From contig NC_088649.1 in NCBI RefSeq assembly GCF_964019385.1, forward strand, positions 10,906,525 to 10,970,524: DNA of 64,000 bases. The letters are read 5' to 3'. The translations under genes were made by a program, and so were the position numbers. Below are positions 372 to 64,000 of this stretch, piece after piece (within the stretch, counting starts at the first letter, position 1; each line of letters opens with the position of its first letter). Under the pieces are notes generated by a model. It worked only from the letters and a program-made list of their open reading frames with translations, was not told the DNA's origin and did no database searches. This DNA is from Sycon ciliatum. Its lineage: Eukaryota > Porifera > Calcarea > Leucosolenida > Sycettidae.

Positions 372-1810
372 GTCCTCAACAAGATGTTCAAAACTTGGAC
401 AAGGGTGGGCGAACTCCAATCAATATCCATTACGTAAGTAAAAGTGATCACCACATCCTGCGACTTCCTGTCGGGGCTGTTGCCCTCTGGCGTTATTGTC
501 AAGTAGAATGTTTTAAAGTTGCCAGTCTCTTCGTCCGGGGTCAGTTTTTGCTGAAGAAATGCCTGCACGCCATCAAAGGCGATTTTCCCGACTGCATCTT
601 TAATCGGGCCTTTGCCGTGGATAACTGCGGAAACAACGTTGGCCGTGAGATCGGGCACACACGACACACGATAAAGGTACACTCCTTGACCTTGACCTGC
701 TTCACCGCGATGTATCTTGAACGAATTGGCCAGTACGCTGACTGCAACTGTATCAGCCAGCACGCCCTTACGACTAGCGGGATCTCTCCTGTGAGCAGGA
801 GCGTACGTGCGGGCCTCAGGCAGGATTGTCCAACTGCGTCTGCATGTTTGGTTTGCCGCTGCGGCAGCGCCAGCTGAGTCATTGCCACCAGCAGAACTGG
901 CCAATGACTCATTACCCGCCGCCTTTGCAGCAGCGCCAGCTGAGTCACTTGTAACGCCAGCAGAACTGGCCAATGTCTCATTACCCGCCCCCTCTGCGGC
1001 AGCGCCAGCTAAGTCACTTGTAACGCCAGCAGAACTGGCCAATGACTCATCACCCGCCGCCTTTGCGGCAGCGCCAGCTGAGTCATTGCCACCAGCAGAA
1101 CTGGCCAATGACTCATTACCCGCCGCCTCTGCGGCAGCGCCAGCTGAGTCACTTGTAACGCCAGCAGATCTTGTGGCAACACGGAGACATGACGCGTACT
1201 CATAATCCTGAGAATGCTGGTGGTGATGTGCTGTGGCACTTGTACCGCTTTGCGAACGTCCTGCGGTATCACTGGGATGAGGTGCACCACTCCGCGAAGG
1301 GCGCCCACGTCCTTCAGCACCACGCGAACCACTCTGTGAAGGGCGCCCACGTCCTTCAGCACCACGCGAACCACTTTGCGAACGTCCTTCGGCATCACTG
1401 GGATGAGGCGCACCACTCCGCGAAGGGTGCCCATGTCTTTCAGCACCACGCGAACCGCTTTGCGAACGTCCTGCGGCATCACTGGGATGACGCTCACCAC
1501 TCCGCGACGGTTGCCCATATCTTTCAGCACCACGCGAATCGCTTTGCGAATCTCTTTTTTTTCCAGACATAATTCCCGATATTCCCCGGCGGGCTAGAGC
1601 AGGTTTACCAGGAGTGGTAGCTGCAGGCTGACCATGTTGTCTTGCAGCAGCAATCGCAGCAGTAGCTGTAAGCTGATCAAGGTGGTTAGCAGCACCACGA
1701 GCAGTAGGTCTTGCTTTAGGTTTGTCTGGTTTGCCTTGGCCTCGGCCCTTTCCACGATCGTCAGAAGGCTGATCGGTAGAAGGCTTCTTAGCCTTTTTTG
1801 GGTTCTCCAT
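372..1810 (-). CDS. PIWI-clade Argonaute gene L, 5' coding exon (partial gene)
   Basis: The exon starts at an ATG (MENPKKAKKPST) and runs 479 codons plus 2 nt to a consensus GTAAGT donor at 371-366; the gene continues past the left edge. Roughly residues 1-330 are low complexity: Lys/Arg-rich start, RG dipeptides (RGKGRGQGK, SRGAE, EGRGRP), Ser/Arg repeats, then Ala/Ser repeats. RG motifs in PIWI N-termini are known sites of symmetric arginine dimethylation read by Tudor proteins. From about residue 345 the sequence matches the start of the Argonaute N domain: a VLANSFKIHR-like strand, YLYRVSCVPD, the PIWI-type AFDGVQAFLQQKL where AGO proteins have YDGRKNLY, and a VVITFTY..SSPTLVQVLNILLR segment like the PIWI segment before the linker. 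Expected role: piRNA-guided transposon silencing in the germ line or stem cells. PIWI rather than AGO is an inference from these motifs; PAZ, MID and PIWI domains lie outside the window. Confidence 0.78.
867..1175 (-). repeat. Coding minisatellite, 66/69-bp units, in PIWI L exon
   Basis: Nearly five copies of a 66- or 69-bp unit (unit starts near 867, 933, 1002, 1071, 1137) that keep frame and encode 22-23-residue Ala/Ser repeats (SLASSAG..DSAGAAA..AGNE). Copies differ by few bases, so copy number may vary between alleles. Confidence 0.85.
1241..1550 (-). repeat. Coding minisatellite, 84-bp (42-bp half) units, in PIWI L exon
   Basis: About three 84-bp units plus one 42-bp half unit, in frame, encoding SRGAE(R/G)..PSRSGAPHPSD.AGRSQSG repeats. 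The repeat amplifies RG and RS dipeptides in the disordered N-terminus. Confidence 0.8.
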
Positions 1811-2623: not shown

Positions 2624-2727
2624 AAAAAAAATAAATAAAAAAAATTTCACGGTTCGCGTGAGACTCGGCTGGAAGCCGGGTCTCACGCGAACCGTGAAAT
2701 TTTTTTTTTTAATAAATAAAAAAAACC
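2624..2727. repeat. Perfect hairpin with A/T-rich flanks
   Basis: The arms at 2644-2663 and 2681-2700 are perfect 20-bp inverted repeats around a 17-nt centre that can itself partly pair. They are extended by an A tract on the left and a T tract on the right, each followed by AATAAATAAA. It could be a very small foldback element. Confidence 0.8.
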
Positions 2728-2730
2728 TGG

Positions 2731-6812: not shown

Positions 6813-6999
6813 TTAGAAACAAAAACAAGGTTTATCTCCATGATAATAATGATAATAATAATAATAATTTGAAACTCAGATATTGAGCCAACGAGAGAGC
6901 TTGGAAGCTAGCTCAGGGCCCTCGTACGCTATGCCTTTTTGCCTTGATGACCTACACAAAAAAAGCATAGGGATGTTATAAATTCTTATAAATTTCTAC

Positions 7000-8123
7000 T
7001 CGGATGTTGAGCCATAAATAAATATGTAGAAGAGAAAAGGACATATCGATACGAGTTAAGAGTAACTCTCCATCACTGTAACATGATACTATATACAGTC
7101 AGAAAGTGCAATAACTAGGCACAAAACTGACAGAGTACTGAAACATTCGACGTCCTGACACCTAGCTTCAACACATCTCCGTAGCGCTAACCGACAGCCT
7201 TCCAACTTGGAAGCTTCAAGGTTATGGAAAGACCAAAGAGGGGAAGGCAAGCGCAACGAAAACGAGCAAAAGCTACAGTCCCAACGGAACAAAGAATGTC
7301 GATTGTTACTGGACGATGACGAGACCAGTACGATATTTGACAAAGCGGTCTAACTACAATTCGAAGCAGCAAAGCAGCACACCACCCAACTTGGGTGGGT
7401 CATAAATATCAAAGATAAATAAAGAAAGGGAAGCTTTGCGAAAACGAATTGTACAAGCCGAAAGCCAAACTCCTACAGTACTCCTCATGCATGACATTGT
7501 GATGGACTAGTTGACTACAAAACAACATCCGAGTTTCAAATTGCACACCTGATGAGCCGTCACGAACCATACGGCGAAACGTACGTCGTGTGAAACAACT
7601 TGTTTTGTAGTCAACTAGTCCATCACAATGTCATGCATGAGGGGTACTGTAGGAGTTTGGCTTTCGGCTTGTACAATTCGTTTTCGCAAAGCTTCCCTTT
7701 CTTTATTTATCTTTGATATTTATGACCCACCCAAGTTGGGTGGTGTGCTGCTTTGCTGCTTCGAATTGTAGTTAGACCGCTTTGTCAAATATCGTACTGG
7801 TCTCGTCATCGTCCAGTAACAATCGACATTCTTTGTTCCGTTGGGACTGTAGCTTTTGCTCGTTTTCGTTGCGCTTGCCTTCCCCTCTTTGGTCTTTCCA
7901 TAACCTTGAAGCTTCCAAGTTGGAAGGCTGTCGGTTAGCGCTACGGAGATGTGTTGAAGCTAGGTGTCAGGACGTCGAATGTTTCAGTACTCTGTCAGTT
8001 TTGTGCCTAGTTATTGCACTTTCTGACTGTATATAGTATCATGTTACAGTGATGGAGAGTTACTCTTAACTCGTATCGATATGTCCTTTTCTCTTCTACA
8101 TATTGATTTATGGCTCAACATCC
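7000..8123. repeat. Long inverted repeat: ~523-bp arms, 76-bp loop
   Basis: The left arm 7000-7523 is the reverse complement of 7600-8123 with only a few mismatches seen by eye. The loop (about 7524-7599) is the start of the 593-bp repeat unit. A transcript through it would fold into a long, nearly perfect double strand. Confidence 0.9.
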
Positions 8124-9290
8124 GAGTTTCAAATTGCACACCTGATGAGCCGTCACGAACCATACGGCGAAACGTACGTCGTGTGAAACAACTTGTTTTG
8201 TAGTCAACTAGTCCATCACAATGTCATGCATGAGGAGTACTGTAGGAGTTTGGCTTTCGGCTTGTACAATTCGTTTTCGCAAAGCTTCCCTTTCTTTATT
8301 TATCTTTGATATTTATGACCCACCCAAGTTGGGTGGTGTGCTGCTTTGCTGCTTCGAATTGTAGTTAGACCGCTTTGTCAAATATCGTACTGGTCTCGTC
8401 ATCGTCCAGTAACAATCGACATTCTTTGTTCCGTTGGGACTGTAGCTTTTGCTCGTTTTCGTTGCGCTTGCCTTCCCCTCTTTGGTCTTTCCATAACCTT
8501 GAAGCTTCCAAGTTGGAAGGCTGTCGGTTAGCGCTACGGAGATGTGTTGAAGCTAGGTGTCAGGACGTCGAATGTTTCAGTACTCTGTCAGTTTTGTGCC
8601 TAGTTATTGCACTTTCTGACTGTATATAGTATCATGTTACAGTGATGGAGAGTTACTCTTAACTCGTATCGATATGTCCTTTTCTCTTCTACATATTGAT
8701 TTATGGCTCAACATCCGAGTTTCAAATTGCACACCTGATGAGCCGTCACGAACCATACGGCGAAACGTACGTCGTGTGAAACAACTTGTTTTGTAGTCAA
8801 CTAGTCCATCACAATGTCATGCATGAGGAGTACTGTAGGAGTTTGGCTTTCGGCTTGTACAATTCGTTTTCGCAAAGCTTCCCTTTCTTTATTTATCTTT
8901 GATATTTATGACCCACCCAAGTTGGGTGGTGTGCTGCTTTGCTGCTTCGAATTGTAGTTAGACCGCTTTGTCAAATATCGTACTGGTCTCGTCATCGTCC
9001 AGTAACAATCGACATTCTTTGTTCCGTTGGGACTGTAGCTTTTGCTCGTTTTCGTTGCGCTTGCCTTCCCCTCTTTGGTCTTTCCATAACCTTGAACCTT
9101 CCAAGTTGGAAGGCTGTCGGTTAGCGCTACGGAGATGTGTTGAAGCTAGGTGTCAGGACGTCGAATGTTTCAGTACTCTGTCAGTTTTGTGCCTAGTTAT
9201 TGCACTTTCTGACTGTATATAGTATCATGTTACAGTGATGGAGAGTTACTCTTAACTCGTATCGATATGTCCTTTTCTCTTCTACATATA
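7523..9290 (+). repeat. Tandem array of three 593-bp units (third incomplete)
   Basis: Units start at 7523, 8116 and 8709 (CAACATCCGAGTTTCAAATT), an exact 593-bp period. Each contains the same 84- and 61-codon open frames, which move with the repeat and have no recognised similarity, so they are not called as genes. The third unit stops near 9290 where the sequence changes to the B-box repeat. Confidence 0.93.
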
Positions 9291-9294
9291 AATT

Positions 9295-9535
9295 TCTACT
9301 TTTTGTTTTTAGACATAACCTGGGGTTCGAACCCGCACTATCGCCCTGCAATGGCCTGCATGCATTCCCCGATACACTTCGCATACATACTAATTCTTCC
9401 AAGTTGCTTCACGTTATGATCTTGTATTTGAAAGCCCTATTTGAATATGAATTGTGGCCACTCACTGGCCAGCCGTCTTTGATTGTACGGTACGGTACGG
9501 GACAGGTACGGTCGAGGGTATTACGACACCATCTA
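9295..9535 (-). repeat. Dispersed repeat with Pol III B-box-like motif, copy 1
   Basis: On the minus strand it reads ..GATAGTGCGGGTTCGAACCCCAGG.., containing GGTTCGAACCC, which fits the RNA polymerase III B-box consensus. Further on it carries TACGGTACGG-rich sequence. Homologous to 9541-9895 and 11107-11455. A tRNA-derived SINE origin is an inference; no convincing A box was found. Confidence 0.6.
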
Positions 9536-11106: not shown

Positions 11107-11455
11107 TGTATGTGGCCAGCTGTGTTTGATGGTACGGTACGGTACGGGAGACGGTGTCGTATTACCCTCCATCGTACCTGTCCCGTACCTATCCCTACCG
11201 TACCGTACCATCAAAGACGGCTGGCCACAATGCATATTCAAATAGGGCTTTCAAATGCAAGATCATAATGTGAAGCAACTTGGAAGAATTAGTATGTATG
11301 CGAAGTGTATCGGGGGATGCATGCAGGGCGCGATAGTGCGGGTTCGAATCCCAGGTTATGTCTTAAAAAAAAGAATTTTTAAAGACCGGGGGATGCATGC
11401 AGGGCGCGATAGTGCGGGTTCGAATCCCAGGTTATGTCTTTAAAAAAAGGAATTT
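11107..11455 (+). repeat. Dispersed B-box repeat, copy 3, with internal ~75-bp duplication
   Basis: Forward copy of the 9295-9535 repeat. The stretch around CGGGGGATGCATGCAGGGCG and GTGCGGGTTCGAATCCCAGG occurs twice in tandem (about 11312-11387 and 11388-11455), each copy with GGTTCGAATCC. Confidence 0.7.
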
Positions 11456-11692
11456 TTTAAAGAATTTATAACATCCCTATGCTCTTTTTTGTCTAGGTCA
11501 TCAAGGCAAAAAAGCATAGCGTAGGGCCCTAAGCTTCCAAGCTCTCTCGTTATTAGTTTGTACGTGAAGTGTGTGGGTTACAGTGAGGGCTGCGTCCCAC
11601 CCGCCTCAGGCTACCTGTGTGGATTCACAGGAAGTGTGAGTTACGAAGTCTGAAGAAAATGTTGAACGGTCTCTGCTGGGATGACGAGTCGA

Positions 11693-11766
11693 CTACACCA
11701 TAGCTCAGTGGTTAGAGCATCGCTGGCTACAGGCGAGGGTCCCTGGTTCGAGTCCTGGTGGTGACA
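11693..11766 (+). tRNA. tRNA-like sequence (pseudo-tRNA or SINE head)
   Basis: TAGCTCAGTGGTTAGAGCA gives a perfect 4-bp D stem (GCTC/GAGC) and an A-box-like sequence. TCGCT/GGCGA gives an anticodon stem, GGTTCGAGTCC a B box, and CACCA/TGGTG most of an acceptor stem. The T stem has a central T-T mismatch, two acceptor pairs are lost, and position 33 of the anticodon loop is not T. The amino acid is therefore not assigned; a decayed tRNA or tRNA-derived SINE is more likely than a working gene. Confidence 0.45.
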
Positions 11767-15115: not shown

Positions 15116-15769
15116 AACATATGTAGTTAGTTATCGTTCGCGTTGCTGAGAGCAGCGCGTATGAGCCTGAGGGGATCACGTGACCGATTCAGCCCCAGCC
15201 ACAGAGAGAACGGTGAAACTGCCGCCGGTGCACGCTGGTGGCTGGTGCCTGCCGGAGCGTGAATCCAAGCTTGAGTTGTTTCGGTCGGTTGCTCTCTTGG
15301 CTCTAGAATTTAATGCTAGGTGCTGTTAAGTTCCCCCTTCCTTTATCTCTTTCCTATTTTCACACTGATTCTCACTCTGTAGATAATTATGTTCTGCTGC
15401 CCGTACAAGAGGCCAATTTTTACACAACAAAAAACACACAACAAACAATTATTAGCAAAAAAGAAAAGAAAAAAAGCATACAATAATGACAGGTACGGTA
15501 CGGGACACATACGGGACGTACGATACCACTCCAGCCATGGGCCAACATCAGCCATTTCCACTGATTACTGGCATTAGGAAAATCGTTACTAGTAAAATCC
15601 CCAAATTGGCCGGCCGAAAAATTCGCCGAAAACGAGACTTATCGAAAATCGCTAAGCCTTTCGCCAATTTTGGAGGGTTCCTTTGAGAATCGCCAAAAAT
15701 CTACCAAATATTGTTGCAAAGTACGTTTACGAATGAATGATGTTGCTGCATGCATCATCACCAGGGATT
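15116..15769. other. No gene; carries a fragment of the TAGGCTTTCCCC family
   Basis: 15597-15760 repeats the CCCCAAAT(C/T)GGCCGGCC..TTCGCCGAAAACGAGAC sequence of 13810-14653 and includes TACGTTTACGAATGAATGAT, also found near 14005-14020. Nothing is recognised in the rest. Confidence 0.5.
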
Positions 15770-18750
15770 TTACGACTCCCTGATCATCACGAAACCTGGC
15801 TCGACCCGAATATTGCACTTAATATTACGCGTTATGACACCTTCCGGAGGGACAGGCCCCCTGCAGAGAATAAGTCCGGGACAAGTGCAAGAGGTTATGG
15901 TGGTGTCTCTATCCTTGTTCGACAGAATAAGTTTAAGTCTGTTGCCATGCGTCCCGATCTAGCTCGCGATGGGTGCGAAGCCGTTTGGGTTCAACTCCAG
16001 CCGTATCCGGCTGCAGCTGAGCCGATCCTCCTCTGCTGCAGTTATCGTCCACCTTCTGCTAAGCCAACAGATATAGCAAGGTACTGCCAGACTCTCGAAG
16101 ACGTACTCATTACTCTTCCTCTTTCATCTTCTCACGTTATCTTGGCAGGTGATTTTAACAGCAAGCACACGTCATGGTGTTCGACAGATTCCACCAATAC
16201 TGCCGGTGCTGAATTGTATCGCACGCTCAGTCCATTTGGTCTTCACCAACTCGTCAACACATGTACATACAAATCACCATCTGGTGTCCAAGCCTGCTTG
16301 GATTTGGTATTTAGTAACCGTGCCAATCTCTCGTCTTGCGTCGAAACTGACTGCCCTCTGGGCGCCTCAGACCATGCCATTGTGTACTGCCAGTTCGACA
16401 TCCCCCTGCCTCAGTCTCCCCGCGAAATAACGTCTCAAGCTCAGGAGCCTAACCCTATGTCTTTCGATCTCCGACACGTCACACCTGCTGTGTGGGAGGC
16501 GGTCAATGCAGACTTAGACTCAGTACCTTGGAACTCATTAATATCCTCAGACGTGGACAGTGCACTTAGTAACCTGCACAGTGTCCTGCAGACTGTGCTG
16601 TCCAAGTATGTTCCCCTTCATAGCTCCCGCAAACCAAATCGAACTCCCTCAACCCCAGGGTCTACACGCAAATATCATCCATGGGTTTCCACTGAACTAC
16701 GCAAGGCTATCAAGTTGAAGCGTGACCTATTCAGCCTCTCCAAGAAATTCCCTACGGACTACAACCTATCAGCATATAAGGCACAGCGGAACCAGGTGAG
16801 ACATCTCTCCCGCTGGTGCCACCGCCAGTACATTCGTTCAATCAAAACAACACTTACCTCAGGCAGCACTACGCTTCACCAGTTTGTCCGCAGTCAGCGA
16901 TCGCACAAAGTAAAACCTGGCATCCCTGACATTGCAAGCCCTGATGGGCTGCTGGTGTCCGACAGCTTCCAAAAAGCAACCATCCTCAACAAGCAGTTTA
17001 CCTCTGTCGCGGTGCCTGATGACCCACGTTTAGTAATACCCCCTCTCCAATATGACACTCGTCTTACTCGCCAATTCACCCGCGTTCATATCACTACAGC
17101 AGATGTTCGTAAAGCCATCTCAAACCTGAAATCTGGGAAAGCGCCAGGGCTAGACGGTATCACGAACAATATGATAAAGAAGCTAGCTCCTGCGATTTCT
17201 TTTCCACTTAGCCGCCTATTTAACCTCTCCTTTACCACAGGCAAGTTCCCTACTGACTGGAAACTGGCTAAAATTGTGCCTATTTACAAGTGCAAAGGCA
17301 GCAAATCTCAAGCTAGTAACTATCGCCCAATTTCCCTCCTGTCCTGTATTTCCAAACTTTGCGAACGGCTCTTCTTCAATCAATTGTATAATCATATTTC
17401 TCCTGCTCTGGATCCCGCGCAATCTGGGTTTCGTCGTGGTGACTCGACCGCTCTACAGCTCACCAAGCTGATCCAAAACGTTGCCGACCATCGTCATATG
17501 GGGCGGAAAGTTGCCATGTGCTTTTTCGACCTCGAGAAAGCTTTCGACACCGTGTGGCACCGTGCATTACTTGCTAAACTTTCCAAAGTTTTCGGTGTGT
17601 GTGACTCAGCGCTGGGGTGGATTACAGACTACCTATCCGACAGAACGCAAGTTGTCTTTGTAGGTGGAACTCTCTCAGATGCTTCACCTGTTCTGTCCGG
17701 AGTGCCCCAGGGATCCATCCTAGGGCCCCTCCTTTTCCTAGTATATATTTGATCTTCCCAGTCATGTTGAAGGTGTGTCCTTATTTGCTGACGATACCGC
17801 ACTGCTCCGGTTCAATGAGTGTCTAGACAGGCTGCGAGACAGTCTCCAGCGCGGTATCAACGAAGTCCATCAGTGGATGACTACCTGGAGACTAAGACCT
17901 AATATCGCCAAGACTGAGATATTATTCCTGCCGAACTCAGAGCCAACCTATGCATTCACTCTTCCCGGATCCCTCACAGACCTCACAGTGGTAAAACAAC
18001 ACAAACATCTTGGTTTGGTCATTGACTCAGACTTATCGTTTAGTAGACATGTCGACTATATCTGTAGCAAAGTCAGTAAAGCTGTTGGCTACCTCGTGTC
18101 TCACTGCTCACACCTACCGCTTGAATGCATTCGACTTTTTTATCATTGCTATATTCTCCACATTTTTCTCTATTGCTCAACCGCCTGGCGGTCATCCCTA
18201 CTTAGTAAATCGTTAATGAGTACCCTGGAAGTCCACAATAAGAGGATACTCAAAGTCCTTTTCCGCAAACCATCATACTTTCCTTCTGCTGAGCTGTATG
18301 ATATGTTTAACACCTTCCCTATCTCTAGTCAAGCGGATCGAAAACTGTGTATTGTTGTTCATTCTATTCGTCTTGACAAAGCCCCACTTGCGTAAATATA
18401 ACTGGTTTCTTCCCACTCGTCCTACGCGCAATCCCTGCACTTTACCTAAAGCCCGAACCTCAGATCTCCGTTTTTTGCTGCCTATTCTCTCTGGCTGGCC
18501 CTGCCTCTATCAGTAAAATCGTCTTGTACGCTAAAGGATTTCAAGGCCAACATGAAGCTCGTGTTCTAATAACTGCTAGTTCTTCATCCACATTTGTTTC
18601 TCTTTGCCTCCAGTAATGTGTAATATTTATTTATTTTTGCTTTGTTTTTGTTTACTGCCATGGCTGGCTACCGCCCCCCTCCCTCCATATTGGCCTATAT
18701 TCTCTGGCCACGGGAAGGTGAAATAAATAAATAAATAAAATAAATAAATC
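15770..18750 (+). mobile_element. LINE (Jockey/CR1-type), 5'-truncated, endonuclease plus RT, frameshifted
   Basis: The long frame to 17752 starts inside an APE-type endonuclease (ETWL, then AGDFNSKHTSWCS and GASDHAIVYC, the conserved GDFN and SDH motifs). It continues into an RT: VRKAISNLKSGKAPGLDGIT, NYRPISLLSCISKLCERL, FFDLEKAFDTVWH and GVPQGSILGPLLFLVYI. At about 17751 the frame is lost by a small deletion and resumes in another frame with SLFADDTALL (catalytic Asp pair) and a thumb/C-terminal region to about 18395, after which it decays. The 3' end is GTGAAATAAATAAATAAA, a short-repeat tail rather than plain poly(A). The first ORF and the endonuclease N-terminus are missing. Not autonomous. 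Confidence 0.85.
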
Positions 18751-20516
18751 ACCCCTCACCGATTGGCTTTGAGCTTGACCTTCTCCTCCGCAGCTATGGC
18801 CTCCAGCAGCTGCATGATTGATTTTTCAACACGTACAGCCCCATCTGACCGATCATCCTGCCTTGATCTGCTTGTCACGAACAGCTTGAACCTCGTCAGC
18901 AGGATTGACTCTGCGCCTGCACTCGGCGCCTCAGATCATCTTCAGCTATTGTGCCATCTTGGCCCGCTTCTTTAGTCACCAATTATAGGCCAATCTCGCT
19001 CCTAAGCGTTGTCAGCAAGGTTCAGGAGAGGATTGTTCACCAACGCCTCTACACCCACATTGAGCCCCACCTACCGGCCGACCAATCTGGATTTTGATCT
19101 AAGGATAGTACTGAACTACAGCTCTCCCGCCTAGTGCATGAGATTTCCGCCAGCCGAGATTCCGGTCAGGCAGTGTCAGCATGCTTCTTTGACTTATCAA
19201 AGGCTTTTGACGCAGTCTGGCATGCTGGCCTCCTGGCAAAACTCGAGCACCTTGGTGTCCGTGTGGCATTGCCCTTACCTGGCTCACAAGCTACCTGACT
19301 CGCCGCCGACAACGCGTCAAGGTTGGCTCCGCTTTGTCATCATGGAAATCCATTCCAGCTGGAGTACCCCAGGGCTCTGTCCTGGGGCCTCTTCTTTTCC
19401 TGGTGTACACGATCGACCTCCCTCCAGCATGTACAAACTCCCACACCAAATGCAGCCAGTTCGCCGATGACACGGCACTCATCGCGACGCATTACACGAG
19501 GGATTTGTCAGTTGCATTCCTCCAACGTGCCGTGGACGCAGCAAGACGATGGTTGAAGGATTGGCATCTCCTCGTCAACACCACGAAAACCGTCGGCCTT
19601 TCCTTCCAACCCCAACACACCATCCACATCACGCTCCACTCGACTCGGCTGCAGCAGGTCCACCAACATAGGCACCTTGGTGTTACACTCCAAGACGATA
19701 TGCGATGGACCCAACACATCATAGAAACCACCAACAAAGCCAAAAAACTACTACACCAACTCCACAAGACACGTGGCACAACGAACGCTTCCAGCCTATT
19801 GTTAATATACACGACCTACATCCGACCCGTTCTCGAATATGGCAGCCTTGCCCTCTCCAACACCACACAGCAACAGCGGGACACACTGGAGAGAATTCAA
19901 CGCCGTGCTATGCGCATCTGCCTTCGGATTCCCCTCTTTGCACCAGTTCACCACAGCTCCCTCCTCCATCATGCAAAGCTCCCCACCCTTAGCTCACGAC
20001 TCCTTGTTAAACAAGCCCTACTACTAGCATGGGACATCCACCACCAAACCTCCCCACCACACCTGCAACAACCACATCTTGCACCACAACGTCAACACCA
20101 ACCATACACCCTTCGACAGACAAGGACCTACTCCATCGGACACGCACACACAAACAGGCACCGAGATTCCCCCATCAACAGTGCCCTCACCCTCTACAAC
20201 TCACTCCCTATCGACATCACAACCCAACCTCGTAGAAATTCTTTCCGAAACAATGCATCCAGTCTTCTTTTGAGCAGTACCTGTTCCTGCTCCGCGCATC
20301 CCTCTGGTTTCTGATATCTCGAACGTGTACTTAACTATCTCGATCACCCCTGCTAACGTTATTGCCCCCGCTTGTTTTTCATGATCCATTGCTTCTTGCC
20401 TCCCGGTTTATTTCCATCTAGCTGTTTCTGGCTAGTACCAGTTCTATCGCACTTATCAATCATCCTTATTGGCGTCACGCCATCGTGGAATAAAAGAATA
20501 ATAATAATAATTTTCT
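18751..20516 (+). mobile_element. Second LINE family, internally deleted
   Basis: Starts directly after the tail of the previous LINE. It has an endonuclease remnant (LGASDHLQLLCHLG, about 18920-18960), a badly broken RT start (ACFFDLSKAFDAVWHAGLL near 19180-19230), then a good frame 19334-20314 with GVPQGSVLGPLLFLVYTIDLP, FADDTALIA, HRHLGVTLQDDMRWTQHI and a long C-terminal region. The frame appears to begin at a TTG because upstream sequence is frameshifted. The 3' end is GGAATAAAAGAATAATAATAATAA. Its C-terminus differs from the flanking LINEs, so it is a separate family. Confidence 0.8.
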
Positions 20517-20734
20517 TTTGTCAGACTCTTCGACTTCCAGCCCCCTCCGAAGATGTTGTATTTTGTTTCAGGAATGTGCGTAGAGAGACCTGTCACTGGT
20601 GAACTTGATGCAGCGCAGCGAGACTGGGCGGTTATCCCGTACAGATCCCAATCTGGCCCTTGCCCAGTTTCATGAGGAATTAAATTGCGTGCTTCTGAAT
20701 CACTTGACGGCCCTGATCGAAGCCATCAAGTTGA

Positions 20735-21536
20735 AACATGATTTGTAAAGTATCTTCAAAACGTATCCGACCGCAAGTAATAATAACTGCCTTTAAATCT
20801 CAGCGAAACCTAGTCTGCTCTCTCTCCAGATCTGCTCACCGATGGTATGTCCGTTCAGTACGATCTACCTTGTCTGACGCCTCCGCAAGACCCACTCTGT
20901 ATCAGTTTGTGCGAAGTCAACGTCCTAATGTCAATCGCATGTCCATTCCTGACCTTCAGCCAGCGTCTGGATGTCTGGCCACTGACCCGGTTACAAAAGC
21001 TTCTGGGCTGAATGAGCAGTTCGCTTCAGTGGCTGTGGTGGATGATCCATCCTGGCCTTGCCCCACATTGCCTAGACACTGCTCCATTTCCTCCTCGTTT
21101 TCTTCTCTGTACACTACGACTGCTGCGGTGCGTAAGTATATCTTAAGATCCAAACCGCGAAAGTCACCAGGGCTTGATCGTCTGACCAATGATGTTCTAA
21201 AGGCCTTGTGTCCGGCAATTGCGTTTCCCATTTGCCTTATATTTAATCTTTCGTTTTCAACTGGCATATTTCCATCTGTTTTGGAAAACCGCCAAAAGTA
21301 TCCCCATGTTTAAGAACAAAGGCTCACCGTCTAACCCTGCCAATTATTGTCCCATTTCCCTTCTCAGCTGTGTATCCAAAATATGTGAACGAATAATTGT
21401 CTTTGATCAACTCTACGCTCATGTGAACTCAGCCATCAGTTCAAAACAGTCTGGTTTCTGTAGAGGTGATTCTACTGTCCTTCAACTTAGTTGGATCATG
21501 CAGGATATTAATTTTATTCTTGTCGGGACAGGGGTA
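20735..21536 (+). mobile_element. LINE fragment, same family as 15770-18750
   Basis: Encodes TLYQFVRSQRPNVNRMSIPD, TAAVRKYILRSKPRKSPGLD and, in a shifted frame, NYCPISLLSCVSKICERI and KQSGFCRGDSTVLQL, colinear with the first LINE. The order is endonuclease-RT linker and RT fingers; palm and 3' end are missing. The sequence stops where the element at 21537 begins and I could not find its continuation beyond 26733. Confidence 0.75.
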
Positions 21537-23023
21537 GGGTCCAGCGGATAATGCCGGCATTATGAGACTATCCGAGCATCAGAGCATTATGGAGCATTAA
21601 AAAGGAACAACACGAGCATTATGTGAGGTCTAAGCGGCATAGCAAGTAACATAGTTTCATAGTGAATAATGTCGGGAAATATCAGGTTTTTGGAAACAAT
21701 CGGCTAAAGCCATGAGGCGCAACGCCATGTGTTGTACCGGCACATGACTTTGTGATTTGTAGACACTTAAAGGGGCACTCCGGCTTCATTTTCGACGCCG
21801 AGTTTTCGATGCCAAGACGAAGGTTGGTGAAAGAGAAGACCCCTCGAACAAGAACGAGTCTCCAGAAGCGATCGAGTCGAGCAGGAAGACGACTTTTGAA
21901 TTTCGGCCGAGCGAGCGCTGATGACGTAATGAGGGATTAGCTTGCCAGTGGAAATGCATCTGCGCACATACATTTCACATACTTTTTGGCCAATTTTCAA
22001 TCGAAGAGGAGGTTGTTTTCTATGTTCTCTCAACGTCGTGAGCGATCCCGTCTTCTATACCCTTCCAGGTACCCTGAAGGTCCTCCAGAGGAGAATTTAT
22101 CTCCAGCAAAGCGTTGTTGATCCGCTAAATTCGTCTCGAGACATATTCACCCAGTGCAGTGCTGACAAATGTAGAATGTTGAATCTGTGATAATTGTCGA
22201 CGATGGACAGAAAGGTTGATAGCCGCTATCGCAGGGAAAGTGAAGCTGCTGGAAGTAACAACGGGGAGCTTGTTAGCATCACTTGATCAAAGCAGCTAGA
22301 CGGAATCGGGGAGTACTGACTATTTGTCTCGCCCTCAGTTTAGTGAATTTTATGATCAGAAAAATTTTCGATCAGGATCCCTTCTACAAGATGTGTAGTA
22401 CAGGTGATTTCTGAACTTGACGATATGGAGACCGACCAGTAGACCTACCAACAACGTGTACCTGCAGGAAATTCACCCAAGGCTATTGCTAATGCTATCC
22501 TCTTCAGTGGCTGTTGTTTTTTTTAGTAAAAATATGTTCACTTCTCTCAACATATTCCTGCATGGCAGCAAGAAGGTGCGCTATGGAATTCAACGCCACA
22601 ATCTTCGCCCAGCTGTGGATGAAGCATGGTCAAGTCATGGCAGTACATATACTTGAACCAGATGAGAAATTGAAGTTAATTTGTGATGCGAAGTTTGACA
22701 GCCCCAGTGACCGAGTCAAGCGTTGTCTTTTGCCGTGGCACAAATTGCTGAAGAATCCGAGATGTTCTTGGAATTATGCACATGGATACTACCAGAAATA
22801 ATGGTGGCATGAACCATTGTGGAATGGGACAGCTCACGGAGAATACTGGAATAGCTCAAGTATCTCTAGGCGATTGTAAATCCTGTTCTGGCTGATAGCT
22901 TCGGCCTGCTGCGCCCGTCCATGTACAATGATGGGAACATGCACTTCTGTTTTCTACATATCTGCTATCTACTGTACTGTGGTATTACAGTTGCAGGTCC
23001 CTTATATAGAAATATGTTCACCC

Positions 23024-23054
<31 letters not shown>

Positions 23055-26000
23055 ATACCCACATAAATATGAACTAACAATTTCACTGTTGGACTCGCCG
23101 GTGGCTAGAGAGCAAAGGATTAATTTATAGCAAAGAAAAGGACCAGGGAACTACAAGTTACGCTATAATGTCCACGAACTATTTCACTGTATTTGAAATA
23201 ATTTTGTTTGATACTCTGAGAACTCTGAAACTTTGCAGCACTGTGGATTATATGTGGATACAACATTTATGGAAGGAACACATAGTTCAAATAATTATAG
23301 CACTGGATTGTTGAGATTGTGAGCACATTCCAATCAGTACTCTACATATTTATAAGCGGTGGCAATCGTTAGGAATAGGTCGTGAGTTGTCAGAGTGCTC
23401 TAGTATATGAGAGAATGTTTTGTTTGTCTAATCGATGGCTCGTTTGAAGCCAGAGTTGTTTGAACTTGCTTCAGCTGACTTGATTCTAGACAGTAGTCGA
23501 AGGAGTACTATGAAGTATACACCAGGCGTAGTCTGTAAGCTATCTCGTGAGAATTCTGTCGGTACACATCAGGTATCAGCTTGCAAAGATGGCTCCTCTC
23601 TGTTTCTTGAAAGCCTGTATAGTTGGACTGTGGCTCCAGCGATTCCCTTCTCAGAGCAGGTACCATACCCAATACGGTCAATGCATATTGGACAGACCTG
23701 TGTGCACAACAGAAATAGTGGAGAGAAATCTCTCAGCTCATGAACACATCAGTGAAGTTTGAACTGCCGTTGTTTGTGGCCATCAGTATAAACCTATCGA
23801 CTATAAGAATAATGTGCAAAAACCCTCTATAAGGCCATGGTAAAAAATATCTTTGATTCTCAAGTACGCGCGCATCGATTTTTGGTGGCGCACCGACGAT
23901 TTTTTTTATTTCTATGCATGCATATGCGTGCATGAAAACGGTCAATGCGAACGGCATGAATCCGGGAGTAGTAAAATACCGGTATTTTTCTACTCCCTGG
24001 CCTGAATAATAAAATAATTATAAATTAATTATGAACCTGTGACGTACACATGTGTGACCCTATCTTTGGAAATAAAAAAATTGTGGGAATTAAAATAAAA
24101 AATCGCTCGCTCGCACCGATTTCCACAGGCTCATGACCTGAGAATCAACTTTATTTTTTACCATGGCCTAACTACAGCTGGGGCCATGGAATTATAAAGC
24201 ATCTAACTTAGGGAACTGCCAATTCTGGTCGGAGTTGCGTTCGAGGCCTGCAATTCATGATGGCTATCGTATGTTGCATTGACCAGAGATCATATAAAAC
24301 TTCCATGCCACATTGAAACACGCACTACTTTCGAGTACTTTGGTATCCCCCACCAAATGGGCATTCGTTCCCGGGGTGGCAGGCGTCACCATTCGTTATG
24401 CCTGGATCAGATTTCATTGACCCCAACTGTCATGAAGAATCATTTTTACTTCGACTGGATTTCAGTACAAGTTAGTTGTAGAACTGCAGAATAAATTTTG
24501 TTGTATTTGGGCAACCATTTCTCTACAAACGCTCTATTTGGAAAATAATTTTTTTAATAAAAATACATGTCCAAATTCCACATCTACCCAAATCGGAATA
24601 CTTGATCACGTATTCAGTCCTACACGGAATGTTTAGAAAACGCCAGGGAATAGGAATTTGCTAACGAGAACTCCAGGCCAGGGTACTAGCATACGAACAA
24701 AACAAGATAAAAACTCACCAGTATACTTGAAGTAATTCATGTCGGTGTAATATTCACGATAAGCAACGAGGCACCCTCCGATTTGGTCAAGCTGCTTTGA
24801 AGTCTGGTTGTTCAGGTGATACAAACGGGCTCCCTGTTGTTACTTCCAGCAGCTTCACTCTCCCTGCGACAGCGGCTATCAGCCTCTCTCTCCATCGTCG
24901 ACAATTATCACAGATTCAACATTCTACATTTATCAGCACTGCACTGGGTGAATATGTCTCGAGACGAATTTAGCGGATCAACAACGCTTTGATGGAGATA
25001 AATTCTCCTCTGGAGGACCTTCAGGGTACCTGGAAGGGTATAGAAGACGGGATCGCTCACGGCGTTGGGAGAACATAGCAAACAACCTCCTCTTCGATTG
25101 AAAATTGGCCAAAAAGTGTGTGAAATGTATGTGCGCAGATGCATTTCCACTGGCAAGCTAATCCCTCATTACGTCATCAGCGCTCGCTCGGCCGAAATTC
25201 AAAAGTCGTCTTCCTGCTCGACTCGATCGCTTCTGGAGACTCGTTCTTGTTCGAGGGGTCTTCTCTTTCACCTACCTTCGTCTTGGCATCGAAAACTCGG
25301 CGTCGAAAATGAAGCCGGAGTGCCCCTTTAATTATGTAAATAATAATGCCTTTAGCACTAATGCTACATTTACCTGACTACATACATGTAATGCCATTGC
25401 TACATAAAGTCTTTATGTAGCAATGACCCTGTATAGTCAGGTAAAATGATTACCGGTATGTACAGGTGATGTAGCATACCCAACGTTGCAACTGAGGCTG
25501 TTACACAAAATCCGTAACGATGATTTACGAGGAGTTCTTTTTCAGAAATCATGGAGAGCCGACCTAGCCATGGAAGAGACTAGGCTAGGCGTAGATCAGA
25601 TCTACGCAAAGTGAATATCAAACAGACGAAGAGGAGTTTTCCTGTTATGCCGTAGGCTCTGGCCATAGCATCTCTAGCGATACTGAAGAAAACACTGATC
25701 CATTGATGCATTTGGATCTGGATGAAGGAGTGGCTACAAACAGAAAGAGCTTGTTCCAAATAACGGCCTTTGCCGAGTCCAGCTCAGCAGGCTCGAAAAG
25801 AACTAGAATTTCTCATAGACGCAGTGCCAAGTCGATTTGAGTGCTCAGCAGCGCGTGTCTTACTTTCCTGGTGAAGCACGTACAGTTCGTCGTGGATGAT
25901 TGTAATGCAAGGCCTACAGTCAAGTGCTATCAGAAATGAAGAGTATTGTGGATTTGTGGCCAACCATTTGTCTCCACGCAACCTCAGGAGATAGCGCGAG

Positions 26001-26733: not shown

Positions 26734-26949
26734 TAGTCCTGGGCAGTGTATCCCGCTGAACGGGTAAGAAACAAGGAAATCCAAGTATCAGGCATCGATT
26801 TTACCCAACATCTCGATATTTTACTCCGATTTCTCCCACAATTTCCGCTCCTTCAGTTCTTCGATATTTTGCCGAAAGAATTGCCGGTGGGATCTGTCTG
26901 GGCCTAATGCCGGGGCATCACTGACACGTCAGGTGACATGCAGCGTATA

Positions 26950-34783: not shown

Positions 34784-34820
34784 CAGTTGCAATTTTGTTT
34801 TCTATTCCTCAACGTTTAGT

Positions 34821-35632: not shown

Positions 35633-35675
35633 TGATGCCGCGAAGGCAGCCCCGGCAGTATCCTCTCTTTTAAAT

Positions 35676-37049: not shown

Positions 37050-37052
37050 ATA

Positions 37053-39356
37053 TTGCACCGCACACCCCCATCCACATTGATGTATTGCATGATGAATTGC
37101 GCACGCACCCCGACCCCTCTTTTGTTCTTGCTTTGATTAATGACTTGCGTTTTGGCTTTCGCATTGGTTTTTCCGGGCCTCGTAATGTTTCTGTTCATAG
37201 TGCTAATCTGTCCTCTACAACAGCTCACCCCGAAGTCGTTGACCAATATCTCGCAACCGAATGCCAGCGGGGCCACACAGCCGGTCCCTTCACAGCTCCG
37301 CCATTCGCCTGCCTCCGCACATCAGGAGTCGGGGTGGTCCCGAAAAAATCAGGCGGGCACCGGTTGATCATGCACCTCTCCGCGCCGCAGGGGAACAGCT
37401 TGAACACGTTCATTGACCCTGACCAATACCGCTTCAAACTGATTACGATCGACTGCATTGCCGATCATGTTCGCAGAACAGGCCCCTGCGCACTAATAAC
37501 CAAGGTGGACCTGGAGCACGCGTTTCGGCTCTGTCCAGTACACCCCGACGACTGGCCATTGCTTGGCATGCAATGGAGATCGAAGTATTACTTTGACACA
37601 GTCTTGCCGTTCGGCTTGCGGTCCGCCCCTAGCTTGTTTAACCGCCTAGCAGACGCGCTTGAGTGGATCCTACGCCACAAGTACAGCATACCCGCACTCG
37701 AGCACTACCTCGACGACTTTGTTTCGGTATCACCACCAGCCACTGTGGTGCCATCGTCGACAGCCGCAGTCCACAAGGCCACGATCCTTCAGGTGTTCGA
37801 CAACCTGGGTGTCCCCACTGCAGTTGGCACCGACAAGGTGGTGGGTCCATCCACGTGCGTCACCGTGTTGGGCATCGAGATTGACTCGGCCACCGGGGAA
37901 CTCCGCCTTCCCACTGACAAGCTCCGCGCGCTGCAACATCTGCTGCAGTCATGGTCTACCCGCCACACCGCCTCACGGCGGGAACTCCAATCGCTAGTGG
38001 GCCACCTGTCTTTCGCAGCAAAGGCTGTTCCTGCTGGACGCACCTTTACCAGACGGCTCTTTGATGCATGCACCTCCGCTCACGGTTCATCGCCCATCGT
38101 CCACCTGAGCAGCGATGCCCTAGCCGATATCCGGTGGTGGCAGGAATTCCTTCCCGTCTGGAACGGCAAAGCCCTCATGCGCGACCCAGAGTGGTCTAGG
38201 TCACCAGACCTTGAGTTGTTCACGGACGCATCCGGCCTAGGCTTCGGTGGCTTCTTTCAAGGTTGCTGGTTCGCCGGCGCATGGTCCGCAACGCAACAGA
38301 CGCCGCCATACACCTCCATCATGTGGAGGGAGATGTGGCTGTTATGGTTCGTCTATACTCGGCGGACGCCGTTCACACACTCAAACTCAAGACAGTCCAG
38401 TCACCTTGAAAACGCAAGCCTTCCTTTCCACAACTCTCCGAGAACTCCCCGAGAGCAACAACCAGTCCCAGGTTATATCCCCAAAAGCAGAAGTATGTGT
38501 ACCGTAGAACAGAGTTGGCGTGCAAAGAGTAGCAAAGAGTAGCAAGTCCTGTACGCGTAGAACCTAGCGCAGAACCTAGCGGCAGAGTACACACATGCAG
38601 CTGCACGTGCACGCGCCAAATCTCTGAAGCAGACATGAATAGAGCTGGGTGGTAGAATGCCTAGGGGGCCTATGGGGCCATGCTTTCAGCACCTAGACCT
38701 GAACACAGAGAAGTGAGGATTCATTAGGCAAGAGGGCTATACAATCAAGACATCGATGAGAGGGCTATACAATCAAGACATCGATGAGAGGGCTATACAA
38801 TCTCAAGACATCGATGAGAGGGCTATACAATCAAGACATCGATGAGAGGGCTATACAATCAAGACATCGATGAGAGGGCTATACAATCAAGACATCGATG
38901 AGAGGGCTATACAATCAAGACATCGATGAGAGGGCTATACAATCAAGACATCGATGAGAGGGCTATACAATTAAGACATCGATGAGAGGGCTATACAATC
39001 AAGACATCGATGAATACATGCAGTTAAGGTTACAACAGTGGCCAATCTCCCTCGCCTGCCAGCTGTGGGGACCGCTTTGGACGCAGAAGAAGATCCTGCT
39101 CCACTGCGACAACGCTTCCGTGTGCGCTGCCTGGGAGTCGGGCACCTGCCGGCACCCAGGAGTCATGGCGCTCATACGCAGCACCCTCCAGACGGCCGCT
39201 CGCCACAACTTCTGTCTGCTTATCCGCCACATCGCCGGAGTAGACAACGGTATCACAGATGCCCTATCCCGCGCTCAGTTCCCACGGTTCCGCCTCTTGG
39301 CGCCCGGGGCCGACCTCAGTCCATCGTCACTCGCTAACATCCACGCCGCAGTGTGA
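37053..39356 (+). CDS. Reverse transcriptase-RNase H (ORF2) of the DIRS-like element, interrupted
   Basis: Readable from HTPIHIDVLHDELRTHPDPS. GVGVVPKKSGGHRLIMHLSA is the RT finger region, ALITKVDLEHAFRLCPVHPD the first catalytic Asp motif, LPFGLRSAPSLFNRLADALE precedes HYLDDFVSVS with the YLDD active-site motif (about 37703-37725), and LELFTDASGLGFGGFF starts RNase H (about 38210). RNase H is split at 38339 by a 700-bp insertion and resumes at 39039 (WPISLACQLWGPLW, LLHCDNASVCAAWESG, RHIAGVDNGITDALSRAQFP) to the stop at 39356. The insertion makes this copy dead although both halves remain open. An RT of this type followed by a tyrosine recombinase excludes an ordinary LTR element. Confidence 0.85.
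38339..39038. mobile_element. 700-bp insertion in RNase H, TGG duplication
   Basis: The host frame ATG TGG | CCA ATC is split with TGG on both sides (38336-38338, 39039-39041). The element's ends CTGTTATGG.. and ..TTACAACAG are short imperfect inverted repeats. It contains the 28-bp satellite. Family unknown. Confidence 0.65.
38732..39013 (+). repeat. 28-bp tandem satellite, about ten copies
   Basis: The unit GAGAGGGCTATACAATCAAG + ACATCGAT repeats with almost no variation; one copy has a CT insertion and one a C-to-T change. There are no spacers between units. Confidence 0.92.
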
Positions 39357-39985
39357 GGAAGTCGCCATCCAGGGTCCGCCGTTACCGAGATTGGACACTC
39401 TGCTCCTGAGACCACAGAACTATGCGTCTGCCCCCGTGTTTTCTTTTTGGTTTTTTTCACTTTTTCCGCTGTGTATCTCTGTTCGCACAGCCTACTGCCA
39501 CGCCCCACCCGTTGCACCTCTGCACTAGTTGTTAAGCCCTCGCCGGGGTGTTACTGGCTATCATTTCTGCCTCAACCCTGTGTGCTCACGGATTGTCAAG
39601 TTCTTTAGAATCGCATCCCTGTATGCTTATGGACCGAGTCAAGTCCTCTAGATTTGCCGCCCGGTGTGCTTAGGGACTGAATCAGGTCCCCTAGACTCCT
39701 GCACTTTTCTTGGGAGCAGTTCGGTCCCGCCGCTGCCTGGGGAGACCACTGCAATAGGCACGTTTACCGGTAGATCGGGAATCAAAAAGGCAAGCCGCAA
39801 GCAAAATCCGCACGCCTCATGGCAGTAGGCCTCCACCGGTCAGAGAGCCCCGTTACACCTAGGATCATGACTGCGCTCATGGGGGTGGGTCGCACGAAGC
39901 AGGGTCATTCGCACTGACTGAATTTCTTTGTCCTTTGTTGTGTTGATTCCAGGCTCGCTGGCCGTTGCCGCATGCAACCGCTCAC
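39357..39985. other. Inter-ORF region of the DIRS-like element
   Basis: No ORF is recognised. Contains two similar stretches, GGACCGAGTCAAGTCCTCTAGA and GGACTGAATCAGGTCCCCTAGA type (about 39630-39695), and a pyrimidine tract ending TTGATTCCAG before the recombinase ORF that resembles a splice acceptor. Confidence 0.4.
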
Positions 39986-40757
39986 ATGATGGCTCGCCAG
40001 CCCAGATCGCTCATCTATCCGCAGAAAAGCAAGGCCGCAGTCAGATACAACCTCCTCTGCAGGGGAGGACCTGTGGAAGTCCTTGCATCCAGCCGGCTCA
40101 CCGCTCTGGTGAAAGGCCTGGAGAGAGAAAGCGCGTCGCTCCCACGACACGCAACTGCCCAGCCTCGGAGACAGGCTATCATCGCCGTACAACTCAAGGC
40201 ACTACATCTTTTCCTGCAGCGTTCCGCTTATAGCCCTGGCGACACGCTCATGCTATGGGCCGCGTTGACGACAGCATTCCATGGTGCTGCGAGTTAGCGA
40301 GTACACGTCCCCGTCGCCAGCAGGGTCGGGTACCCTGAAAACTCTCAGGCGCGCTTACCTCGTGCTCTCTCAGGCCACAGCCAGCTTACGGCTTCAACGC
40401 ACGAAGACATCGCAGCTGACAAGCGGTGGCGAGGTTGTGCTGCATCGCCATGCAGACCCGCAAATATGCCCCGTCCTGGCCCTCGGGGCATACGTCAGAT
40501 CATGCGCATGGGGTAGTGACGAACAACCTCTCTTCAAGTTCGGCAATGGACGATGGCTCACGCCCAATGACATCAACGCAGTGTTGCGCAGGGTTCTGGG
40601 CCCCAGCTACAGTAGCCACTCCCTCCGTGCAGGTGGCGCAACGCACATGGCGAACCAAGGTGCCCCGGAGTATGCCTTGATGGCAGCCGGGCGGTGGTCC
40701 AGCGGAGCTTACCGCACGTACGTTCGCAGGCCTGCAGGCATGTCACGGCGTTACTGA
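39986..40757 (+). CDS. Tyrosine recombinase (ORF3) of the DIRS-like element, frameshifted
   Basis: From ATG (MMARQPRSLIYPQKSKAAVR) the first frame runs through an N-terminal DNA-binding-like region to AALTTAFHG and stops at 40297. A one-base-type shift near 40285 moves to a frame beginning LRVSEYTSPS and ending at 40757. The catalytic set of the family is present: Arg in LRVSEY, the HSLRAGGAT box (His-x-x-Arg, about 40617), Trp in GRWSSGAY, and a candidate nucleophile Tyr in YRTYVRR. These enzymes integrate the element's DNA circle by site-specific recombination. The frameshift would abolish the protein in this copy. Confidence 0.85.
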
Positions 40758-41054
40758 GCCACGGGTCGCAAGCACCGCACGCCCCCTTTTCTTGGAGGCA
40801 CGGGCTCGGCCGATGGGCATGAATTCCGCATGGTGCACATCCATCGGCTGCCGCAGACAATACAATTTTAAATATACTTGTGGGTACTACCGAGTACTTA
40901 GTGGTCATGCAGTTGCCATAGCAGTGTACTGGTACACCCAGCCTTTATGATTGTTACAGGACCCCACGGGTCGTCTTTCAAACGCTCTTTCATAGCCGAT
41001 AGATAGATGGCGTTATTTGTTCCTATCATACTATGTTTCAGATGGGCGGCCTTA

Positions 41055-41346
41055 AGGCCGATTCACAATACAACTTTCTGCGACGCGACACGCGATTTGC
41101 GACAGTTGCGACAAGAAACTGCCTGTCGCGAGCTGCCGCAATGCACCTGCCGCAGAAGTTGAAGAAAGTTCAACTTTTGCGACATGCGACACACACACAA
41201 ATGGAGTACAGTTTCGACCCTGGGTGCACGTGCATAGTACTGCTTGTGCATGATCATGATGAGGATGTCGCAAACATGAATATTGTGAACCGTGTGTCGC
41301 ATGTGTCGCAAGTCGCGTTGCAGAAAGTTGTATTGTGAATCGGCCT
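41055..41346. mobile_element. MITE in B1, AGGCCGATTCACAATACAAC termini, TTA duplication
   Basis: ~36-bp terminal inverted repeats. The sister B2 copy reads GGCGGCC TTA GACGGCC without the insertion, while here TTA is on both sides (41052-41054, 41347-41349). This exact TTA duplication supports PIF/Harbinger-type mobilisation. The interior is rich in GCGACA/TGTCGC repeats. Confidence 0.88.
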
Positions 41347-41437
41347 TTAGACGGCCCAGTCCGATCATTTCACGCGAACTATGTTATACGTCATCATGAT
41401 CACAATAACCATAATTATGTCGTGCTCCCGTTCAATA

Positions 41438-41841
41438 GGGAGGTTTAGTTCCCACGTAACGGAAACGCGTACGTGGGTGATCCACGTAAAGTGGAGGAAG
41501 GGCATCCACGTTGCAATGTTGTGTTTAGTCACACGGAACAAACAAAAGCATGAAGCGAAAGGCCCAAACCTGGTCAAAGACGAAGCTACCCGGGCCTAAG
41601 AAGCTCATCGAATATTTTTATTTCGTGCTTCGGAAATTTCTTCAGCTGAGCACCCTCACAGCTCGCAAAATGCGCTCCATTCTGATTTTCACCCACGTTC
41701 TGGCGGAACGTGGGTGAGCCTCCATAGTCCATACACGGTATGTCGTGAATCAGAAAACGTCTGTACGTGGCCGTGGGTCACTGAGTATCACGTGGTACAC
41801 ACACGTAAAGTACCCACGGATTACGTGGGACTAAACCTCCC
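41438..41841. mobile_element. MITE in B1, GGGAGGTTTAGTTCCCACGT termini
   Basis: The left GGGAGGTTTAGTTCCCACGT and the right ACGTGGGACTAAACCTCCC are inverted. Absent from the B2 copy (TTCAATATAAGC). Several internal ACGTGGGT repeats. Adjacent to the next MITE. Confidence 0.8.
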
Positions 41842-41849
41842 TAATACTA

Positions 41850-42190
41850 GAGAGGTTCTGCTATACGTGAAACGTAGAGAAATCACGTAGAGAGCAGGTG
41901 CCTGGGTTAGAGTCTACGGCTTCGCGTGTTTTGGCTCCAGATTTCTACGCGGAGATGAGGTTCTCTACGTTGCGGCACACGCAGAGAAAATGCGTACGGA
42001 TTTGGTGGGTATCGATCAACTGCATGCAGAAAACTGCCAAATATGGAAGGGGAAATTCCCAGTACACATTCCACGTGACTTCTCTAGGTGAAACGTAGAG
42101 CAGAACAGCATTTCTTTACGTTACGGGAACGCGAAGAAAGTTCGCGTGATTCTTTGCGTCGCGTTCCCAAAACGTAGAGCAGAACCTCCC
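41850..42190. mobile_element. MITE in B1, (G/A)GAGGTTCTGC termini
   Basis: GAGAGGTTCTGCTATACGTG at the left and AAACGTAGAGCAGAACCTCC at the right are inverted, with internal ACGTAGAG repeats. It shares the G(G)GAGGTT start with its neighbour, so the two may be subfamilies, one inserted at the edge of the other. Confidence 0.7.
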
Positions 42191-42246
42191 TAATTATAAG
42201 CTTGCGACACCCCACTGGCTCATCTCTTCTGTGGTGTGAGGGTTAA

Positions 42247-42547
42247 ATGTTGGTTTGCGTTGCGCAAACCGTAGTTAACCAGCACGCCACGGGCCGCGCC
42301 CCCGCAGGGGAATATTCCCGCAAGATGACTTTAGGTGACCATACGCACTCCGCCGTGCCGCCGCAGCCGACTTGCGCAAGCACGCACTCTTGCAGAGTTC
42401 CGCATTCGGGTCGCACTCGCATACGACATCCCGTATGAGCCACCCTTCGCCTGGCGGATGCATCCGTAGACGGCTCATCTACTGCTGGCTGGTGTAATTT
42501 TGCCAGTTGTCTGTTTTGCTGCGAGTGCTCGCCACGCAATTTTGTTT
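42247..42547 (+). repeat. A2 repeat of the DIRS-like element
   Basis: Uninterrupted counterpart of A1, with the 19-bp palindrome at 42252-42270 five bases from the B1/A2 junction. Confidence 0.88.
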
Positions 42548-42576
42548 CCCACCCGCCCACGCCTACCGGACGGAGG

Positions 42577-42962
42577 GGAGGCACGGGCTCGGCCGATGGG
42601 CACGAAATCCGCATGGTGCACATCCATCGGCTGCCGCAGACAATACAATTAATATACTTGTGGGTACTACCGAGTACTTAGTGGTCATGCAGTTGCCATA
42701 GCAATGTACTGGTACACCCAGCCTTTATGATTGTTACATGACCCCATGGGTCGTCTTTCAAACGCTCTTTCATAGCCGATAGATGGCGTTATTTGTTCCT
42801 ATCATACTATGTTACAGATGGGCGGCCTTAGACGGCCCAGTCCGATCATTTCACGCGAACTATGTTATACGTCATCATGATCACAATAATCATGTCGTGC
42901 TCACGTTCAATATAAGCTTGCGACACCCCACTGGCTCATCTCTTCTGTGGTGTGAGGGTTAA
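42577..42962 (+). repeat. B2 terminal repeat of the DIRS-like element
   Basis: Uninterrupted counterpart of B1. It ends GTGTGAGGGTTAA at the right edge of the element, followed by the TCCTTGTTGGCGG flank. Confidence 0.88.

Positions 42963-44340: not shown

Positions 44341-64000
<19,660 letters not shown>

Follow-up and report, generated by a model that had tools for sequence, protein, structure and literature searches.

PIWI proteins defend animals against jumping genes. In the calcareous sponge Sycon ciliatum, a stretch of 64,000 nucleotides on contig C8 (C8:10906525-10970524, referred to as the window) carries the 5' exon of one PIWI-like gene and the 3' part of another on the same strand. 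The first-pass annotation had read this as two PIWI genes in tandem, separated by a space that nested transposons fill almost entirely, and the question arises whether both are indeed PIWI genes, how they are related, and whether the transposons between them call for a special explanation. Our search covered 538 Mb in 313 contigs and made use of a Piwi profile built from 80 animal Piwi sequences returned by a protein search. The answer that we regard as very probable is that the two genes, L on the left and R on the right, are old, tandem-duplicated and intron-rich genes for PIWI-clade Argonautes with N, PAZ, MID and PIWI parts, that their products would be piRNA-guided slicers, and that these would perhaps be the Piwi1/Aub-type partners of a protein encoded on contig C1. 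The exons that fall inside the window are the following:

372-1810, minus strand: 5' coding exon of L (open frame 371-1813, about 480 aa)
44341-44457, minus strand: last exon of R with the stop codon (frame and junctions; L counterpart 76% identical)
46318-46477, minus strand: exon of R with VTPTHFN (Pfam and PDB match of joined exons, frame and junctions)
46907-47035, minus strand: PIWI exon of R with PGTIIDD (Pfam and PDB match of joined exons, frame and junctions)
48175-48242, minus strand: PIWI exon of R (junctions and frame; weak Piwi profile match, E 1.6)
48879-48961, minus strand: exon of R with the second catalytic Asp position (Pfam and PDB match of joined exons, frame and junctions)
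49317-49387, minus strand: PIWI exon of R with the catalytic Glu position, read by eye (junctions and frame; weak profile match, E 0.91)
49899-50124, minus strand: exon of R with TVGLDVYH (genome PIWI search, junctions and frame, Piwi profile)
53039-53104, minus strand: exon of R, MID part (profile E 0.015; boundaries approximate)
55660-55860, minus strand: exon of R, MID part (profile E 7.7e-8; boundaries approximate)
63611-63721, minus strand: exon of R that follows PAZ (profile E 5.9e-6; boundaries approximate)

Exon series and domains of L and R

The seven 3' exons of R, from 50124 to 44341, are linked by GT-AG junctions and keep the frame open up to the stop at 44341; three of them, when joined, matched the Pfam Piwi family (E 1.2e-28) and solved Piwi proteins in the PDB (best E 9e-28). 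Extension beyond the window edges, as the first-pass annotation had advised, led into PIWI exons of L on the left and to the PAZ, linker and 5' exons of R on the right. The Piwi profile extends the R series upstream as far as C8:10977068, with profile positions of about 430-490 missing from the search. The 5' exon (C8:10976394-10977464) lies 5.9 kb past the right edge; it opens with MSSQGTGRALGRGRGRAGAGRGRGRG and encodes an RG-rich N-terminus, a feature shared with animal PIWI-clade Argonautes. The joined exon model of R matched PF02171 (E 6.6e-69, 232.9 bits, cut-off 28.9), the PAZ family PF02170 (E 1.1e-24, 87.1 bits, cut-off 28.8) and the ArgoL1 linker. An intron of R contains a 360-base AG repeat (59808-60167); in translation, one of its strands gives Glu-Arg repeats and the other Ser-Leu.

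The bounds first given for the L exon, 372-1810, proved exact, because an ATG is located at 1810 and a GT donor immediately past 372. The exon encodes an N-terminus rich in repeats, followed by an N-domain-like part. Searched alone, it had no match in Pfam and none that was meaningful in the PDB; it matched the Piwi profile with E 7.2e-7 and is 42.5% identical over 160 aa to the 5' exon of R (C8:10976394-10976849). Further exons of L, colinear with the Piwi profile, run from C8:10900685 to 10847963. Profile positions 219-312 were missing from the search of this C8 region and are perhaps hidden in a stretch that reads N; the DNA that separates the first exon from the next L exon located includes 5000 N (C8:10901525-10906524). 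The joined model, with its exons outside the window, matched PF02171 (E 2.5e-78) and PF02170 (E 3.4e-20), both far above the cut-offs of Pfam, and its match to the ArgoL2 linker was below the Pfam cut-off. The first-pass annotation had considered that the exon might join to a non-PIWI protein; it joins PIWI exons on the Piwi profile, and this series together with the homology to the R 5' exon rules out a non-PIWI gene. Coding tandem repeats are present in the L N-terminus, with a 69-base unit at 855-1168 and an 84-base unit at 1322-1550. The exon is flanked on both sides by tracts of CA repeats.

The L exon and the stop codon of R are 42.5 kb apart. A search of the DNA between the two genes with the Piwi profile gave no match at E < 3, and to the right of R there was one match with E 2.2. 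Both exon series are ordered along the profile, and exon ends match closely between the genes, with several small exons placed on weak profile matches combined with frame and junctions. The frames of both genes are open wherever they are readable. Asp, Asp and His are visible in L as well as in R and the Glu position was read by eye; we take Asp-Glu-Asp-His to be the catalytic set, with the His in VTPTHFN and the first Asp in TVGLDVYH. The N-domain family of Pfam was matched by neither joined model. L and R are 51% identical. The first-pass annotation had also considered an assembly error; a single gene split by misassembly is ruled out for the pair, because L and R follow separate exon series and about half of the residues differ. 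Two PIWI genes in tandem, as originally proposed, are thus what the locus holds: both joined models carry PAZ and PIWI, and the genes are neighbours, lie on the same strand and are sisters.

In domain order, catalytic residues and a profile match along most of their length, L and R resemble animal PIWI-clade Argonautes (Piwil1/Siwi/Aub, Piwil2/Ago3). They differ from them in overall sequence: identities across the matches listed in two protein searches (120 rows each) range from 34 to 49%, and the tree branch is long. Neither L nor R is itself among these listed matches, which thus gave no independent gene prediction for them.

Placement among PIWI classes and proposed function

A first tree was calculated from 51 rows, two of them Sycon AGO rows and the other 49 PIWI rows, among which L and R are counted; a second comprised 36 of these, 15 rows (14 references and one AGO piece) having been dropped beforehand. 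The outgroup consisted of Argonautes at C4:0.54 Mb (first tree only) and C1:58.41 Mb, which we take to be AGO-type from their motifs. The C1:58.41 Mb gene can be read through 862 residues or more (920 in the genome search listing) in a single open frame, is apparently intronless in that part and is perhaps a retrocopy. In the 51-row tree, the PIWI rows, L and R among them, separate from the two Sycon AGO rows with support of 100. L and R are sisters in both trees (SH-aLRT 98 with 51 rows, 99 with 36), as expected because a tandem duplication predicts sister sequences; this expectation of the first-pass annotation was borne out in a comparison with a single additional PIWI gene from Sycon. That further PIWI gene of the genome, located on C1, falls inside the Piwi2/Ago3 group with support of 100 in both trees. 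A PIWI stretch of 84 residues at C1:90.64 Mb is, by eye, letter-identical to part of a listed Sycon ciliatum piwi-like protein 1.

The position of the pair relative to the PIWI classes is less clear-cut. In both trees, L+R is drawn outside all other animal PIWI rows, those of Piwi2/Ago3 included, with support for the remaining group of 92 (51 rows) and 96 (36 rows), as if the two formed an ancient PIWI class of their own, the third besides Piwi1/Aub and Piwi2/Ago3. However, the L+R branch is very long and stands next to a very distant outgroup, and a tree that forced L+R together with 20 Piwi1-type rows scored slightly above the free tree and was not rejected (p-AU 0.58). Because the branch is long the placement is tentative, and we consider a third ancient class unlikely.

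The history that we prefer starts with an old tandem duplication that would have given rise to L and R. Both proteins would possess all four parts (N, PAZ, MID, PIWI) together with the full set of catalytic residues. Judged from sequence, the two are most likely piRNA-guided slicers, which would bind piRNAs and cut transposon RNA. In ping-pong, the best partner of L and R would be the Piwi2/Ago3-type protein of the species encoded on C1, to which they are perhaps the Piwi1-type counterpart; L and R together would then represent a duplicated, rapidly evolving Piwi1/Aub-type side. Expression of the genes, piRNA loading, slicing and ping-pong pairing are what we infer for both.

Partial copies of L and the DNA between the genes

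A PIWI family search of the genome gave 20 matches. Of these, 13 belong to C8, where they occupy five places and without exception lie on the minus strand. The two-gene arrangement first described holds, and it is larger than was stated then: three more partial copies of L are located on C8, on the same strand and 0.5-1.1 Mb downstream. The DNA around one L exon matches three places besides L (about 9.84, 10.10 and 10.35 Mb) at 97-99%; the remaining matches to this DNA are short repeats, except for one more piece of the 10.10 Mb copy. The search with the L 5' exon gave strong matches at L and R only, and the first PAZ exon of L likewise matched at these two places only. For the exon after it there was a match at L only, the R counterpart known from the Piwi profile being missed. 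The two MID exons of L matched L and all three copies, and R weakly. Since 5' and PAZ exons are unmatched at the copies and MID exons are matched there, what was found of L in them is limited to its MID-PIWI part, although further exons could be hidden in stretches of N.

All three are young copies, at least one of which is disrupted: the coding exon of copy 1 is interrupted by an insertion of about 370 bases. The match between copy 1 and L continues as far as the N stretch of L. At non-exon sites, the copies diverge by 1.7-2.3% from L and by 1.5-1.8% among themselves. Differences from L are less frequent at exon sites than at other aligned sites in copy 1 (8/767 versus 189/8288, Fisher 0.020), copy 2 (0/397 versus 118/6160, Fisher 0.0013) and copy 3 (3/602 versus 127/7649, Fisher 0.025), and also when copies 2 and 3 are pooled (3/999 versus 245/13,809, Fisher 5.6e-5); these counts refer to exons within the compared stretches and leave out the last exon of all three copies and the His exon of copy 3, which reads N. 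The pattern suggests that the coding parts are under constraint, although alleles would look alike in this respect. A role of the copies as alternative 3' cassettes for the N-PAZ exons of L was dropped as implausible because of the distance of 0.5-1.1 Mb.

Alleles of a marine invertebrate can reach the level of non-exon divergence just given for the copies, and a lower divergence of exons is also expected between alleles; the L-like copies, or even L and R, might then be haplotypes or mis-joined pieces of one gene. L and R themselves are not alleles, because they share only 51% of their residues and are present on one contig as two separate series of exons. The copies, taken alone, may be such an artefact of the assembly; on the other hand, there are four L-type places with differing insertions, more than two haplotypes can account for. 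Altogether, we judge an assembly artefact to be quite unlikely and prefer the view that, later than the duplication that produced L and R, the MID-PIWI half of L would have been copied three times within 1.1 Mb downstream. A bolder combination, in which calcareous sponges have kept a third deep PIWI lineage, with L and R as its survivors, and, at the same time, the MID-PIWI-only copies (or at least the two not seen broken) are working PAZ-less proteins under constraint and not debris, appears improbable to us.

Between L and R, the following transposons were recognized:

15737-21313, plus strand: non-LTR retrotransposon, three coding pieces with broken frames (RVT_1 on two pieces)
26768-29081, plus strand: reverse-transcriptase-like pieces, broken (by eye; no Pfam match on 27208-27792)
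33394-42893, plus strand: DIRS-like retrotransposon (RVT_1 6.8e-11, split direct repeats)

In the first of these, Pfam detected RVT_1 on 15737-17749, together with an endonuclease, and on 19211-20311; the piece at 20735-21310 had no Pfam match and was assigned to the non-LTR element by eye. The split direct repeats of the DIRS-like element pair 33394-34784 with 42247-42548 and 40794-41412 with 42577-42893, and its Phage_integrase match of 17 bits is below the cut-off of 27.1. A 28-base repeat array lies nested inside this element, and so does a 156-base duplication. Transposon coding pieces and the DIRS-like element cover 16,232 of the 42,527 intergenic bases (38%), a figure that rises to 24,543 (58%) when internal repeats are added and to 28,267 (66%) when similarity to 275 kb of other DNA is added as well; by the cross-match measure alone, 21% is repeated between L and R versus 12% in one control stretch right of R. 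The wording of the first-pass annotation goes too far here: the intergenic space is rich in transposons, but they do not occupy nearly all of it, and they are nested only in part.

Several further repeats are located in the same DNA. The arms of a perfect 528-base inverted repeat lie at 6998-7525 and 7600-8127, with 74 bases separating them, and the repeat runs into a tandem repeat (593 bases, about three copies); the whole region, 6998-9303, might fold as a long RNA hairpin or represent a fold-back element. Another pair of inverted arms, 531 bases long, 96% complementary and 2.5 kb apart, lies within 21760-25338 and is possibly a DNA transposon with long terminal inverted repeats. The DNA at 11311-11463 and 11694-11766 looks like tRNA-derived repeats: a 76-base tandem repeat there contains a GGTTCGAATCC box, as in tRNA genes, and a nearby ARAGORN match is labelled tRNA-Pyl.

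One could imagine that the transposon-rich stretch serves as a piRNA source, with run-on transcription from R making transposon-antisense RNA. Seven of eight merged transposon-coding loci from L through R (C8:10876572-10964646, in part at 15737-58122 of the window) are oriented opposite to PIWI transcription, and so are eight of nine single elements in our own count (binomial 0.039). Over all 264 kb searched, however, the figure is 8 of 11 loci, two loci right of R being reversed, and the orientations were counted post hoc, with the data already seen. Such a source is therefore highly improbable. The weak orientation bias is the sole pointer to a functional link between PIWI genes and transposons here, and on present evidence the transposons between L and R need no special explanation; they would be ordinary occupants of a repeat-rich region.

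PIWI duplication in other animals

Duplication of PIWI genes is a known kind of event, encountered here in a little-studied lineage. The passages cited from PMC12147562 describe lineage-specific PIWI duplication in a flatworm and others, with groups of very similar, seemingly recent Piwi-like paralogues in the flatworm Macrostomum lignano. Sycon is like M. lignano in having very similar, recent PIWI copies; its set consists of one older sister pair and three partial copies on one contig, and the comparison, as far as these passages go, is one of similarity only (PMC12147562). In Lake Malawi cichlids, extra piwil1 copies are reported from transposon-rich DNA, two of them truncated and one a likely pseudogene; they lie on different chromosomes, are PiggyBac-linked and are truncated to the PIWI domain (portion cited: PMC11753138). 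Sycon likewise has extra, partial PIWI copies in transposon-rich DNA, but these are on the same contig and strand and comprise MID plus PIWI, and no carrier element was identified for them (PMC11753138). In Diptera, the Piwi/Aub side has been duplicated repeatedly and evolved faster afterwards, according to the section cited from PMC4824172; duplication of the Piwi/Aub side with faster evolution would be alike in both cases, and that in the sponge would be independent (PMC4824172). A literature search found no title or abstract opening describing these Sycon PIWI genes, with subscription journals mostly out of its scope.

If our reading is true, lineage-specific turnover of PIWI genes, as in insects, flatworms and cichlids, would extend to an early-branching animal phylum. 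The Sycon pair would then be a natural comparison when one asks why, in some animals, only one of the two PIWI partners has been multiplied.
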